From: Candidatus Omnitrophota bacterium
Lineage (GTDB): Bacteria > Omnitrophota > Omnitrophia > Omnitrophales > JACROU01
NCBI GenBank assembly: GCA_016214265.1
Contig: JACROU010000077.1
Coordinates: forward strand, 1-36,538
Direction: 5' to 3'
DNA: 36,538 nucleotides
The first letter of the stretch is position 1. Every line of letters starts with the position of its first letter. The translations under genes and the position numbers were made by a program. Below the pieces are notes generated by a model. That model was not told where the DNA came from. It saw only the letters and a program-made list of their open reading frames with translations, and ran no database searches. Of this stretch, positions 18,627-35,289 are shown one piece after another.

Positions 18627-19940
<1,314 letters not shown>

Positions 19941-19944
19941 TCTG

Positions 19945-21048
19945 TCAGCGGTTTCCAAGATCCAGTCTGAAAAGAGCCCCCGTTGCAAAAACGAGATTGC
20001 TGAACCAAGCTGCCACCGGCGCGTAGAGCACTCCGGATTTTCCGAGTGCCTGCGCGAAGGCGTTGGTGATGTGGAAGGCAAGAACCACTCCGAAACAAAT
20101 ACAGAGATTAATCGCAAACGCTTTGCGTTTGGCAATTACCGAAAGAATCGGCACCGCAATCAAAATCATCACAAGATTATACCAGGGAGACGCCAGTTTA
20201 TTAGCTAGCTCTACTTCTTCAGAGTGCAGCCGGAATTGATGTTCTTTGAGCTTCTGAATCTGGCCTTTTAGCTCCTTATAACTTAAATAAATGCTTTCTC
20301 GGGATGTCTCAATTAAGTCTTTTGGCGTCACATTCACTTCTGTAAAATCTTTTTCTGGTAGAATTACGGGATCTCCTACAATTTTCCCTTGCTCGTCCAT
20401 GTCGTATGAGGTGATTTGCTTCAGTTTCCAAACGCCGCTTTTATAAACGCCTTCTTTGGCGATTACTTTTCTCTCGGCTTTTTTCTCTGGAGTCAGAAAA
20501 AGAACGTTCAGGTTTTCCGCTTTGTTCTCCTTGGTGTTAAATGTCTGAATATAAAAAATCTCATTCTCGGGGCTAAAATAGGTGACATCATGAAGTGTCA
20601 GGCCCCCCATTTTTTTTGCTGAAGAGGCATTCTTTTCTATCTGAGAATGACGGATGTCTTGGGCTTCCAGGTATGTGTTGGGTACTACGCGGTCATTGAT
20701 GACAAAGGTCATAATGCCAATGACCAGGCCGACATAAAGCATCGGGACCATAATCGTTTCAATCGAAAGGCCGGCTGCTTTCATCGCAAGAATTTCGTTG
20801 TGGCGGTTGTAATTGAAGAGGAGAAAAATTGTGCCCAGCAATGTCGCCCAGCAAATAGTTTGCGAGAAAGCAATTGGAATCAGATTAAGATAATATTTGA
20901 AGATGTAGCCGACATCGGTTTTATTCCGGAGCATTTCGCTCAAATTATCGAAAATGTCCGCGATCAAAAAAAGCATGATTAAGCTGGCTGAGCAAAAAAT
21001 GATCGGGATAACCAGTTCACGGATGACGTAACGATCCAGGATTTTCAT
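19945..21048 (-). CDS. lptG: LptF/LptG family LPS export permease (YjgP/YjgQ)
   Basis: 367 residues on the minus strand. It opens MKILDRYVIRELVIPIIF, the standard LptF/G start, followed by membrane helices near 12-32, 58-78 and 98-118. A long periplasmic beta-jellyroll region comes next (about 125-270), then three C-terminal helices (about 282-365). The stretch NEILAMKAAGLS is the LptB-coupling helix region. With LptB (9453) and the LptC-LptA fusion it would form the inner-membrane LPS extractor. Only one of the usual LptF/LptG pair is here; G rather than F is a guess. It overlaps comF by 4 nt, and its 3' end meets ahcY with no visible terminator. Confidence 0.88.
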   Translation of the reverse strand: MKILDRYVIRELVIPIIFCSASLIMLFLIADIFDNLSEMLRNKTDVGYIFKYYLNLIPIAFSQTICWATLLGTIFLLFNYNRHNEILAMKAAGLSIETIMVPMLYVGLVIGIMTFVINDRVVPNTYLEAQDIRHSQIEKNASSAKKMGGLTLHDVTYFSPENEIFYIQTFNTKENKAENLNVLFLTPEKKAERKVIAKEGVYKSGVWKLKQITSYDMDEQGKIVGDPVILPEKDFTEVNVTPKDLIETSRESIYLSYKELKGQIQKLKEHQFRLHSEEVELANKLASPWYNLVMILIAVPILSVIAKRKAFAINLCICFGVVLAFHITNAFAQALGKSGVLYAPVAAWFSNLVFATGALFRLDLGNR

Positions 21049-21788
21049 GATAGGGACGGGGTGCGCGCCAAGGCGAATACGCTGACCTTTGAGGCCCCGG
21101 CCTCCTTTAACATTTTAGAGCACTCTTGGACTGTAGCCCCAGTGGTGACGACATCATCAACTACGAGGACCCAGCAATTTTTTAATTTCATGCGCTTTCT
21201 CACTTGAAACAAGTTTTCCAAATTTGCCAGCCGTTCCCGTCGTGTCAACCAGCTTTGAGGCGAACGGTGTTCACGGCGAAGCAGGATATCCTTTTTTATG
21301 GGAATATCCAAGATTTTAGATATCGTCTCGGCAATGATAAGGGATTGATTGAAAGTGCGCTCTTTCATCCGGAATTTGTCCAGCGGAACAGGAACAATGA
21401 AAGAGGGCAGTTCGGGCCATTGATTTTGGAATGTCCGTTTGATTTTTTTCTTGAACGTCTCAAGCAGCCAATATTTGCGCTCATATTTGATTTGATGAAG
21501 GACTTGTTTGAAATTATCGTCGTATCGAAAAACAGCGAAAATTTCGTCGAAGGTAATAGCTTTCCCGCGGCAAGCGTTGCAACGGCTTATTTTTTCAGTG
21601 TGTGGGGGGATTTCAACGCCGCACCCTCGGCAAATAGGTAACCGGATCCGGGCGAGTTTGATGAAACAGGCCCGGCACAGATGATCTTCAGTAAGGTGAA
21701 GCAGGCGTTTGCAAACAGCGCACCAGCCGGGATACAGCCAGCGAGCGAGGGTCCGGGTCAGCATTCGTAATTCAAAAACCGTGTTCAT
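21045..21788 (-). CDS. ComF family phosphoribosyltransferase-like protein
   Basis: 247 residues on the minus strand. An N-terminal zinc-finger region has CAVC, CRAC, CRGCG and CNACRG, followed by a PRTase fold with the phosphoribosyl-diphosphate motif VLVVDDVVTTGATVQECS near the C-terminus. FIVPVPLDKFRMKERTFNQS is the typical ComF middle. ComF/GntX proteins are linked to DNA uptake in competent bacteria and otherwise of unclear role. The first ATG (21788) has no Shine-Dalgarno. A good -10 lies just upstream, so the mRNA may be nearly leaderless. A second in-frame ATG nine codons in (before LTRTLARW) also lacks a ribosome site. It is co-oriented with and overlaps lptG. Confidence 0.88.
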   Translation of the reverse strand: MNTVFELRMLTRTLARWLYPGWCAVCKRLLHLTEDHLCRACFIKLARIRLPICRGCGVEIPPHTEKISRCNACRGKAITFDEIFAVFRYDDNFKQVLHQIKYERKYWLLETFKKKIKRTFQNQWPELPSFIVPVPLDKFRMKERTFNQSLIIAETISKILDIPIKKDILLRREHRSPQSWLTRRERLANLENLFQVRKRMKLKNCWVLVVDDVVTTGATVQECSKMLKEAGASKVSVFALARTPSLS

Positions 21789-21796
21789 GACCGGTT

Positions 21797-21825
21797 AATA
21801 TACACGAAAAAAAAGTGACAGTCAC
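21797..21825 (-). promoter_or_regulatory. Candidate comF-lptG promoter, minus strand
   Basis: On the minus strand GTGACT (21820-21825) and TATATT (21797-21802) are separated by 17 bp. Initiation about 7 nt after the -10 would fall within a few bases of the comF ATG. The -35 is one half of the palindrome that also serves the rpsU promoter. Confidence 0.5.
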
Positions 21826-21826
21826 T
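21814..21826. repeat. 13-bp palindrome AGTGACAGTCACT between comF and rpsU
   Basis: AGTGAC-A-GTCACT is a perfect inverted repeat around base 21820. It overlaps the -35 elements of both divergent promoters. Twelve of its thirteen bases recur at 22101-22113. It could be a repressor or activator site, or a copy of a dispersed palindromic repeat. Confidence 0.6.
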
Positions 21827-21843
21827 AAAACTGACGATATAAT
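21815..21843 (+). promoter_or_regulatory. rpsU promoter
   Basis: GTGACA (21815-21820, five of six consensus bases) and a perfect TATAAT (21838-21843) are 17 bp apart. The predicted start near 21850 leaves a leader of about 23 nt with AAGGA before the GTG start codon. Confidence 0.75.
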
Positions 21844-21872
21844 ACGCGCACTTTAAACGAAAGGATTCACTC

Positions 21873-22055
21873 GTGACCAAAGTTCTCGTCGGTGAAAATG
21901 AAAGTCTCGAAAAGGCGCTGCGCCGCTTGAAGAAAAAAGTAGAGCGCGAAGGTGTCCTTAAAATTTTAAAAGCCCGCAAGCATTACGAAAAGCCCAGCGA
22001 AATTAAACGCCGCGCCCGTCGTAATTCCCAGAAGAAACAACGCTTCGCTGTCTAA
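21873..22055 (+). CDS. rpsU: Small ribosomal subunit protein bS21
   Basis: 60 residues, GTG start at 21873 with AAGGA 7 nt upstream. bS21 is a small basic 30S protein that sits near the anti-Shine-Dalgarno end of 16S rRNA and helps initiation. The sequence has the family form: VGENESLEKALRRLKKKVEREG, then ARKHYEKPSEIKRRARR and a basic tail. It is a single-gene unit with its own promoter upstream and a strong terminator 30 nt downstream, in contrast to the long operons around it. Confidence 0.95.
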   Translation: MTKVLVGENESLEKALRRLKKKVEREGVLKILKARKHYEKPSEIKRRARRNSQKKQRFAV

Positions 22056-22084
22056 GCCAAATAGGGCGGATTTTTAAGATAAAA

Positions 22085-22122
22085 GGTGGCTGTTACCCTA
22101 AGTGACAGTCACCTTTTTTTTT
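22085..22122 (+). terminator. Rho-independent terminator of rpsU
   Basis: Left arm GGTGGCTGTTAC (22085-22096) pairs with GTGACAGTCACC (22102-22113) over 12 bp including two G-U pairs, with a 5-nt loop CCTAA. Nine T follow (22114-22122). The right arm repeats the palindrome of the rpsU promoter. Confidence 0.9.
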
Positions 22123-22130
22123 GCTAAAAT
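22102..22130 (+). promoter_or_regulatory. Candidate hisS operon promoter overlapping the rpsU terminator
   Basis: GTGACA (22102-22107) lies in the right arm of the terminator. TAAAAT (22125-22130), preceded by an extended-10 TGC, follows after 17 bp. Initiation near 22137 would leave a leader of about 28 nt containing GAGGAGG. Confidence 0.6.
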
Positions 22131-22164
22131 ACCCCTTTGTTTTTAGCGAGGAGGCGCCTTTCTC

Positions 22165-23454
22165 TTGAAGTATCAAGCACTTAAAGGAATGATGGACATT
22201 CTGCCGGATCAGGTTTGGAAATGGCAGTTTGTGGAATCTGTATCCCGGAATATCTTCAACCGCTTCAATTTCCAGGAAATCCGTACGCCTATTCTGGAAT
22301 CCTTACCTCTGTTCCAACGATCGATTGGTGAAGAAACCGATATCGTTCAAAAAGAAATGTTTCAGTTTAAAGACCGCGGCGATCGCGATGTGGTAATGCG
22401 TCCGGAAGTAACGGCCTCTGTCGTGCGTGCCTTCGTCGAGCATCAACTCAAGGACGGAAAGCTTTATTACATCGGCGCCAGTTTTCGCGCGGAGCGTCCT
22501 CAGGCCGGACGTTTTCGCCAATTTCATCAGGTGGGCGCTGAACTAATCGGAGGGAAAAATCCGGAGGATGATGTTCTTCTTCTGAAAGTATTGACGGCGC
22601 TACTGGCAGGGCTTGGTCTTCGCCGGTATCAGCTCAAAATCAACAGTGTGGGATGTCAAACAACCTGCCGTCCGGAATACCGGAAAGTGTTGAAAGAATA
22701 TCTGAAACAGAAGCACGCGCATTTGTGTGAAAACTGTCAGCGCCGCATCGAAACCAATATTATCCGGATCTTCGACTGCAAAGTGGAGGGTTGTCAGAAA
22801 GCGATTGAAGGTGCCCCGCGCGTTTTAGACCATCTGTGTAAACCCTGCGAGGAGCATTTTGCGAAAGTGAAAGAACTGCTCGATCATGAAAAAGATATCC
22901 CGTATCAGATTGAGCCGCGAATTGTACGGGGGCTGGATTATTATAACCGAACCGTTTTCGAGGTCAGTCATGACGCGCTTGGCGCCCAGAATGCGGTGGG
23001 CGGCGGCGGACGTTACGATACGCTGGTGGGCGAGCTCGGTGGATCAAAAGATATTGGTGCGTGCGGGTTCGCGTGCGGGATGGAGCGACTTCTGATGGCG
23101 CTCGACAGCGAAGAAGGGTTTAAGACCGAAGAATCGGCCCAGCGTCTGCGCTGCGGATTAATTTATCTTTGTGTTTTGGGAGGGAATCCTGAACTAAAAA
23201 CTGCCGCGCGGAAAATTCAAGGACAGCTTCGCGGCGCTGATTTTCGAGTCGAAGAACTCGCCGCCGAAGACAAACCGCTCAAAAAACATTTGGAAATCGC
23301 TAATCGTTTGCACGCGCTCTTTGTTTTAATTTTGGGAGAAGATGAATTCCGTGAAGGAACTGTTTCTGTCAAAGATATGAATTCCGGCACTCAGGAAAAA
23401 ATTAAATTAGACGCAATCGAAACCTATCTGAAAGGAAGGCTGGTCTCGCGATGA
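22165..23454 (+). CDS. hisS: Histidyl-tRNA synthetase
   Basis: 429 residues, TTG start at 22165 with GAGGAGG (22148-22154) 10 nt upstream. It charges tRNA-His. Class II motifs are the motif-1 region RNIFNRFNFQEIRTPILE, motif 2 in FRAERPQAGRFRQFHQVGAE, the HisRS-specific RGLDYYNRTVFEV, and motif 3 in GFACGMERLLMAL. The insertion between motifs 2 and 3 has the CENCQRR...DCKVEGCQ...CKPCEEHF cysteines common in bacterial HisRS. The anticodon-binding domain fills about 335-429. The stop overlaps aspS by 4 nt, a common hisS-aspS pairing. Confidence 0.96.
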   Translation: MKYQALKGMMDILPDQVWKWQFVESVSRNIFNRFNFQEIRTPILESLPLFQRSIGEETDIVQKEMFQFKDRGDRDVVMRPEVTASVVRAFVEHQLKDGKLYYIGASFRAERPQAGRFRQFHQVGAELIGGKNPEDDVLLLKVLTALLAGLGLRRYQLKINSVGCQTTCRPEYRKVLKEYLKQKHAHLCENCQRRIETNIIRIFDCKVEGCQKAIEGAPRVLDHLCKPCEEHFAKVKELLDHEKDIPYQIEPRIVRGLDYYNRTVFEVSHDALGAQNAVGGGGRYDTLVGELGGSKDIGACGFACGMERLLMALDSEEGFKTEESAQRLRCGLIYLCVLGGNPELKTAARKIQGQLRGADFRVEELAAEDKPLKKHLEIANRLHALFVLILGEDEFREGTVSVKDMNSGTQEKIKLDAIETYLKGRLVSR

Positions 23455-25235
23455 GTAACAGTTTGTTTGTGACAAAATTCCGAACCCATACGCTGGGTGA
23501 ATTAAATAAATCGAATGTCGGCCAAGAAGTAACGGTTGCCGGCTGGGTAGCGAAACGCCGGGATCACGGAGGTTTGATTTTTGTAGATTTGCGTGATCGA
23601 TTTGGCTTGACTCAAATTGTGTTTAATCCAGAAAAGGTTCGTGAGCTGCACAAAGAAGCAGAGAAAATCCGCCTGGAATATGTGATTCAAGTCACCGGAA
23701 AAGTCGTTCCGCGTCCAGCTGGAACCGAAAATCCGAAATTGCCGACGGGGGAGATTGAAATTGAAGCAAGCGATCTCAAAATTCTGAACGCCTCCGAACA
23801 GTCTCCGTTTGAAATTTCAGAGGACTCCTTTGTTTCTGACGATGTCCGGCTCAAATACCGGTTTCTGGATTTACGGCGCAAGATGATGCAGCGAAATTTA
23901 AAATTCCGCTACGATGTCACGCGAGTCGCGCGAACTTATTTTGATGGCCAAGGCTTTATGGAAGTCGAGACGCCGTGCCTGACGAAGAGTACGCCGGAAG
24001 GCGCGCGCGACTATCTGGTTCCGGCGCGGCTTTCTCCCGGAGATTTTTACGCCCTGCCGCAATCGCCACAGCTCTTCAAACAGCTGCTCATGGTGTCCGG
24101 CATCGACCGCTACTATCAGCTGGCCCGCTGCTTCCGCGACGAGGATTTGCGCGCGGATCGTCAGCCCGAGCACACGCAAATCGATGTCGAGATGTCTTTT
24201 ATCGGCGAAGAAAATATTATGAATTTGATCGAGGGATTGCTAGTTTCGGTGTTTAAAAATTTGATGAAGATCGAGCTTAAAACCCCGTTTCGCCGTATGT
24301 CATACGACGAAGCGATGAATCGCTACGGATCGGACAAGCCGGATCTCCGATTTGGACTGGAAATGTCGGACGTCACCGAGCTATTCAAAGACACCGGATT
24401 TAAAGTGTTTCAGGATGTTATTCAGGCGAAAGGCGCGATCAAAGCGCTTCCGGTTTCCGGCGGCGCGCAATTTTCCCGAAAAGATATGGACGATATGACT
24501 GAGCACGTCAAAGGGTTTGGCGCGAAGGGGCTGGTGTGGATGAAACGTTCCGCGGCCGGAGAGTGGGAATCACCCGTAGCGAAATTTTTCACTCCTGAAG
24601 TGCTGGAGAAAATAGCAAAAACCCTCAACGTGAAAAATGGCGACGTCGTATTTATGGTGGCCAGTGATTGGCGTACCTCGTGTTTTTCACTCGGCGCACT
24701 CCGGAATTATCTTGCCAATAAATTGAAACTGATTGCCGAAGGCAAATACGAACTTTGCTGGGTGGTCGACTTTCCGATGTTCGAATATAGTGACGAAGAA
24801 AAACGGTTGATGGCTTTGCATCATCCGTTTACCGCGCCGAAGGATGAGGATGTTCCGAAGCTGAAGACCCATCCCGAGACTGCGCACGCGAAAGCTTACG
24901 ATATCGTTTTGAACGGAACCGAAATCGGCGGCGGCAGCATTCGAATTCACGATCGGGGAATTCAGTCTCAGGTATTTGAATGTCTGGGCATCGGCGAGGC
25001 GGAAGCTCAGGAGAAATTTGGATTTTTGCTGAAGGCACTCAGTTTCGGCGCTCCGCCGCACGGAGGCATTGCGATCGGGCTGGACCGGTTGTGTGCGGTA
25101 CTCCTCGGAGCGGAATCTATCCGTGACGTGATCGCTTTTCCGAAAACGCAAAAAGGTACTTGTTTGATGACAGAAGCGCCGTCCAAAGTGGCGCCAAAGC
25201 AATTGAAGGAGCTTCATCTAAAGCCGGTAGCATAA
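23451..25235 (+). CDS. aspS: Aspartyl-tRNA synthetase, probably non-discriminating
   Basis: 594 residues, bacterial type. The OB-fold anticodon domain has [23 protein letters not shown]. The class II core has [54 protein letters not shown] and, at the end, [13 protein letters not shown] insertion domain (about 280-420) marks it as the bacterial form. His39 in RRDHGG corresponds to the residue (His31 in Pseudomonas) linked to relaxed tRNA choice, so it may also charge tRNA-Asn with Asp for later amidation by GatCAB. That is inference. It overlaps hisS and is 16 nt from phoH. Confidence 0.95.
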
Positions 25236-34446: not shown

Positions 34447-35289
34447 ATGCTTTTTCGCGCTCGAAAACATCAATTTGATCTTTCAAAACAGGTGCTGATC
34501 ATGGGCGTGATTAATGTCACGCCCGATTCTTTTTCGGATGGCGGAAAATTTCTTGATCCTGAGAAAGCGGTTTGCCACGCACTCCAGCTTGAGTCGGAAG
34601 GCGCGGATATTTTAGATGTCGGAGCCGTTTCCACGCGTCCCGGAGCTCCGGAGGTTTCCGAAGAGGAAGAGCGTGCACGGCTCATGCCGGTGCTTGAAAG
34701 AGTTTGCCGCCGGGTTTCGGCGCTGATTTCTGTCGATACCACATCGCCGCGCATTGCCAGCGAAGCGCTTGAATTGGGTGCACATATCGTGAATGATGTG
34801 AGCGGGCTTAAAAGTAATCCGGCACTGGCCGAACCAGTTGCGAAATATCAATCGGGAATTATTTTGATGCATCGACGGGGCAATCCGCGATCGATGCAGA
34901 ATCTGGCTCAGTACACCAATTTGATTGCCGACGTAAAATCAGAACTTCGAGAAAGTATTCAGATCGCTCGTTCGTACGGTATTTCGGATGAGGCGATTGT
35001 GGTGGATCCTGGCATTGGTTTTGCCAAAACACCGGTGCAGAATCTTGAAATTTTGAATCGCCTCAAAGAATTTGAAGATCTGGGATTTCCGGTGATGGTG
35101 GGCCCGTCGAATAAATCGTTTATCGGGGATGTGCTGAAGCGCGAAGTGTCGGAACGAAAAATTGGAACCATTGCCAGCTGCGTGCTTGCCGTTCGTGAAG
35201 GCGCGCGCATTTTACGAGTTCATGATGTTCAGGCCGCGAAAGAAGCGGCTGAAATGACGTTAGCCATTATTCAACAAGAGGAGAAGTGA
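34447..35289 (+). CDS. folP: Dihydropteroate synthase
   Basis: 280 residues, ATG 34447, no strong ribosome site. It joins p-aminobenzoate to dihydropterin pyrophosphate in folate synthesis; it is the sulfonamide target. Motifs are MGVINVTPDSFSDGGKF (about 19-35), ADILDVGAVSTRPGAPEVSEEEE, ISVDTTSPRIA, IVNDVSGLK, IVVDPGIGFAKT and VGPSNKSFIG, where the last carries the lysine-serine pair that contacts substrate. SNKSFI is a small variation on the common SRKSFI. The ftsH-folP pairing is common in bacteria. yebC follows after 3 nt. Confidence 0.95.
   Translation: MLFRARKHQFDLSKQVLIMGVINVTPDSFSDGGKFLDPEKAVCHALQLESEGADILDVGAVSTRPGAPEVSEEEERARLMPVLERVCRRVSALISVDTTSPRIASEALELGAHIVNDVSGLKSNPALAEPVAKYQSGIILMHRRGNPRSMQNLAQYTNLIADVKSELRESIQIARSYGISDEAIVVDPGIGFAKTPVQNLEILNRLKEFEDLGFPVMVGPSNKSFIGDVLKREVSERKIGTIASCVLAVREGARILRVHDVQAAKEAAEMTLAIIQQEEK

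Follow-up and report, generated by a model that had tools for sequence, protein, structure and literature searches.

It is a long-standing question whether repeats of the REP type are parasitic or of use to the genomes that carry them. RAYT genes have been described with REP copies on both sides (PMC2817692), and REPINs consist of doublets in inverted pairs (PMC3116915). For GTAG- and CGTC-tagged palindromic repeats a role in termination has been hypothesized, and the promoter question was called not yet tackled (PMC3733652). Here we compare with these systems a locus of a Candidatus Omnitrophota bacterium, located in a 36,538-nucleotide stretch of DNA (hereafter the window), where a palindrome lies between the divergent genes comF and rpsU.

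Like REP and REPIN elements and their RAYT genes (PMC2817692, PMC3116915), the repeat to which this palindrome is assigned below is short, mostly extragenic and present in many copies in two sister genomes of the same family (G001 and G002), it occurs as doublets and inverted pairs, and one Y1 gene of G001 is flanked by copies. It differs from them by the lack of a GTAG or CGTC tag, by the shortness of its unit (13 bp, flanked by A/T), and by its near absence from the genome of the window itself. It resembles the tagged repeats (PMC3733652) in being a dispersed hairpin repeat, but the tag is missing and its arms coincide with the -35 hexamers of both divergent genes. As in other overlapping divergent bacterial promoters, the opposite-strand -35 boxes share bases, so that binding of polymerase to one should exclude binding to the other; here, however, the common sequence is a dispersed repeat and no conserved operator.

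Predicted promoters of comF, rpsU and hisS

The window has a compact layout here, in which only 84 bp separate comF from rpsU and the two -10 boxes are 35 bp apart. The genes and predicted promoter elements are the following.

21045 to 21788, minus strand: comF, ComF-family phosphoribosyltransferase, then lptG (gene check: ComF family, LptG)
21797 to 21802, minus strand: putative comF -10 box TATATT, 8 bp 5' of the ATG, a leaderless-type promoter as in many relatives
21814 to 21826, no strand: 13-bp perfect palindrome AGTGACAGTCACT, copy of a REP-like dispersed repeat whose commonest form in G002 is the same 13-mer
21815 to 21820, plus strand: -35-like GTGACA of rpsU, within the palindrome (promoter scan)
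21820 to 21825, minus strand: -35-like GTGACT of comF, within the palindrome (promoter scan)
21838 to 21843, plus strand: putative rpsU -10 box TATAAT, in ATATAATACGC common to G002 (scan and comparison with G002)
21873 to 22055, plus strand: rpsU, 30S ribosomal protein S21 (gene check: TIGR00030)
22102 to 22107, plus strand: hisS -35-like GTGACA, part of the 3' arm of the predicted rpsU terminator (promoter scan)
22125 to 22130, plus strand: -10-like TAAAAT of hisS (promoter scan)
22165 to 23454, plus strand: hisS, histidine--tRNA ligase (gene check: TIGR00442)

The perfect symmetry that the sequence-only reading had reported for 21814-21826 was confirmed, with its centre at 21820, a base that is common to the rpsU and comF -35 boxes and that is also the exact midpoint between their -10 boxes. 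The same reading had placed GTGACA 17 bp before the TATAAT of rpsU and GTGACT 17 bp before the TATATT of comF-lptG, and a mechanical promoter scan returned both, GTGACA-N17-TATAAT on the plus strand (21815-21843) with 11/12 matches and GTGACT-N17-TATATT on the minus strand (21825-21797) with 9/12, the comF -35 box itself matching at only 4/6 positions. The hisS pair GTGACA-TAAAAT scores 10/12, again with a 17 bp spacing, and the 16-18 bp spacing of sigma70-type promoters is found in all three predicted promoters.

Of 30 loci, window included, 21 have a -10-like hexamer at a distance of 6-12 bp from a comF start; a perfect TTGACA accompanies 13 of the 21, and the -10 box is TATAGT in all but one of these 13. 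This position, kept in most relatives, indicates that the comF message is probably leaderless, and it makes TATATT a credible -10 box in the window, where it stands 8 bp from the ATG. Because the comF -10 box is kept in most relatives and the rpsU -10 region (ATATAATACGC) in G002, both promoters are likely to be real, and sigma70 may well use the hexamers of the palindrome. Polymerases could hardly occupy the two promoters simultaneously, and mutual exclusion would be expected.

Symmetry taken alone is weak evidence, since the window contains 12 palindromes of 13 bp with such symmetry and one turns up in about 1.4% of intergenic 84-bp sequences after shuffling. The feature that exceeds chance is the recurrence of the same 13-mer beyond the first site. 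Rfam families were absent from positions 19900-23500, and a literature search for the exact palindrome string returned unrelated papers only.

The comF-rpsU arrangement in relatives

The sequence-only reading had itself named relatives with comF and rpsU so arranged but no palindrome as grounds for its refutation, and such relatives exist. Seventeen other genomes with divergent comF and rpsU were compared, and GTGACNGTCAC is absent from the gap in every one, which is not the conservation at orthologous promoters that characterizes an operator. Most of these 17 relatives have TTGACA as the -35 box of both genes, and 100-370 bp lie between their -10 boxes. Genome G004 (L015) is as compact as the window (35 bp between -10 boxes), and its overlapping -35 boxes form the near-symmetric TTGATTTCAA, a different string, which suggests that such overlap in itself favours symmetry. 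G001 and the window have AATATACACGAAA in common, and by direct reading this puts a TATATT 9 bp before the G001 comF ATG, an assignment from which the automatic -10 call at that locus (L050) differed. The repeat was not seen in the sequenced rpsU-hisS gap of G001 and G002.

Other sequences accompany the rpsU -35 box in relatives. A stretch like CTATCTTGTTGAATTAGAAAAGGTTACA is kept just 5' of it in L051, L052, L054-L058, L060, L061 and L064, and at the rpsU promoter of G001 (L009 / L050) another inverted repeat, GAGACTCTT...AAGAGTCTC, surrounds the TTGACA.

A dispersed repeat in the sister genomes

GTGACNGTCAC is found in 130 copies in G001 and 204 copies in G002, and the reversed-pattern control gives 0 in both. 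Most of the copies in sampled stretches, which for G002 were picked from contigs carrying copies, lie outside ORFs (23/29 in G001 and 39/45 in G002), in sequence that is about 90% coding. They form doublets with a period of 15-16 bp, often in inverted pairs (e.g. T-15-T-27-A-15-A), and the units of G002 doublets are joined by TAAA or TTTA. The tags of the described REP superfamilies are not a feature of the units, GTAG being near 7/44 and CGTC near 1/44 copies in G002 (2/29 and 2/29 in G001), and we therefore name the repeat REP-like. One G002 copy, AAAAAGTGACCGTCACTTTTT, lies 5' of rpsU and overlaps the stop codon of the gene before it; it terminates an aroD-like gene located within the 4 kb that separate rpsU from comF.

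Two stretches of the window correspond to this repeat.

21807 to 21829, plus strand: 23 bases, AAAAAAAAGTGACAGTCACTAAA, identical to G002 repeat copies and including the TAAA doublet joiner of G002
22081 to 22117, plus strand: second repeat copy, a decayed doublet GGTGGCTGTTACC-CTA-AGTGACAGTCACC of period 16, predicted to terminate rpsU through a 16-bp hairpin and the T run after it

The second stretch overlaps 22 exact bases (22100-22121) common with G002 repeats. Control 84-mers had 11-16 exact bases in common, apart from one at 23 that starts at 21801 and contains the palindrome site. The whole window genome holds 5 exact GTGACNGTCAC, the same number as its reversed-pattern control, and for this reason the assignment of the window copies to the family draws on the sister genomes and on flank identity, which on sequence grounds demonstrate it.

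Copies and Y1 transposase genes

The five occurrences in the window genome comprise two around rpsU, two C-centred ones in apparently coding sequence, and one in a hairpin between rpsA and tyrS (names from our reading of the translations), leaving only three intergenic copies. A genome-wide regulon of the palindrome was rejected, there being no excess of GTGACNGTCAC over control. Both copies around rpsU are intergenic, that at 21814 as a singlet and that at 22081-22117 as a doublet hairpin; sequence after 21829 that might be a second, decayed unit was discounted as too weak. AAGTGACAGTCAC recurs at 22100-22112 in the rpsU-hisS gap, 287 bp from the first copy, as the 3' arm of the rpsU terminator hairpin, for which a fold of -22.6 kcal/mol is predicted (22081-22117). 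A CTA-spaced doublet of this kind is also present in G001 (L136). The third copy is the hairpin AAAGGTGACAGTCGCTGTGCGTGACTGTCACCTTTTT, 3' of rpsA, at about 1480-1515 of L006 (G000:C93 about 34675-34710); about 10-16 bases separate its end from the ATG of tyrS, a gene with no obvious ribosome-binding site. A hisS search gave no locus in viral contigs and one distant locus in genome contigs.

A -10-like hexamer stands 16-18 bp from the half-site in 3 of 4 cases in the window, versus 2/148 in G001 and G002 together, which is background level. Since two of the three window half-sites are the starting observation, only the hisS case is independent, and retention of the copies through their usefulness is thus suggested and no more.

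One of the four Y1 transposase genes of G001 has three repeat copies upstream and one downstream; a repeat-flanked Y1 gene was not found in the G002 assembly, which is 87% complete. RAYT-driven mobility would be consistent with this arrangement, the candidate RAYT being known as a Y1 transposase only. The single Y1 gene of the window genome was rejected as the cognate transposase, as it has a different palindrome, GGTTCCAGGAACC.

Further repeats were seen in the window genome. Its only Y1 gene (L047, G000:C35:3452-3784) is flanked by AAAGGTTCCAGGAACCTTT palindromes of another repeat family, and at L041 (G000:C64:38208-38247) paired AGGTGCCAGGCACCT palindromes lie within a larger inverted repeat, ACAGAAGGTGCC...GGCACCTTCTGT.

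Origin of the palindrome

The sequence-only reading proposed that a protein bound at the palindrome would block or control both promoters. Its layout and the likely reality of both promoters hold up, but the palindrome as operator finds no support: the 17 genomes of the same arrangement lack it, and its symmetry can be explained without a DNA-binding regulator, the sequence being dispersed through sister genomes as a REP-like repeat. A dimeric transcription factor jointly controlling comF, rpsU and hisS would account for two identical 13-mers, one on either side of rpsU, that coincide in part with the -35 boxes of three promoters. We nevertheless find it highly improbable in view of the 17 divergent-pair genomes without the palindrome, a window genome count no higher than control, the rpsU-hisS gaps of G001 and G002, and the hundreds of mostly intergenic sister-genome copies with no favoured distance to -10 boxes. 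Symmetry could also be a by-product of opposite-strand -35 overlap in a compact gap, free of any repeat ancestry, as the 35 bp arrangement of G004 illustrates; this would leave unexplained both the identical 13-mer 287 bp away and the 23-nt and 22-nt identities to sister-genome repeats, and we regard it as unlikely.

That the palindrome is the terminator-type hairpin of a former gene between comF and rpsU, devoid of promoter function, seems quite unlikely as well. The G002 palindrome that terminates the aroD-like gene speaks for such an origin, as does the hairpin on the window minus strand, which is followed by T8, but no gene now ends at the palindrome, and taken by itself the hairpin has a weak fold of about -3.5 kcal/mol. 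Two -10 boxes, each with support of its own, stand at exactly 17 bp, which favours promoter use whatever the origin of the palindrome. We think it probable that the sites are relic copies of a REP-like family of which this lineage has hardly any left, and that they were co-opted as -35 boxes and terminator. An element of AGTGACNGTCACT units, often doublets, would have multiplied in the bacterial family, probably with a RAYT-type (Y1) transposase moving it, and become almost absent from the window lineage, where a few intergenic copies sit at places useful as transcription signals. The comF-rpsU copy would supply each strand with one of two overlapping -35 hexamers, for the leaderless-type comF promoter and for that of rpsU, and the copy 3' of rpsU would form the intrinsic terminator of that gene and offer the hisS -35 box. 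Selection may have kept these copies. A bolder version of this co-option, in which the lineage purged a RAYT-type family and the survivors were exapted at translation genes to core transcription signals, the -35 boxes of rpsU, comF and hisS and the terminators of rpsU and rpsA, is conceivable but on balance doubtful.

The locus thus cautions that a palindrome over a promoter need not be an operator. Around the gene for a ribosomal protein, both core promoter elements and a terminator are seemingly supplied by one repeat sequence, in a genome from which its family is nearly gone. A promoter role has been called untested for such repeats (PMC3733652), and this site would be a concrete, testable candidate for their retention by exaptation.
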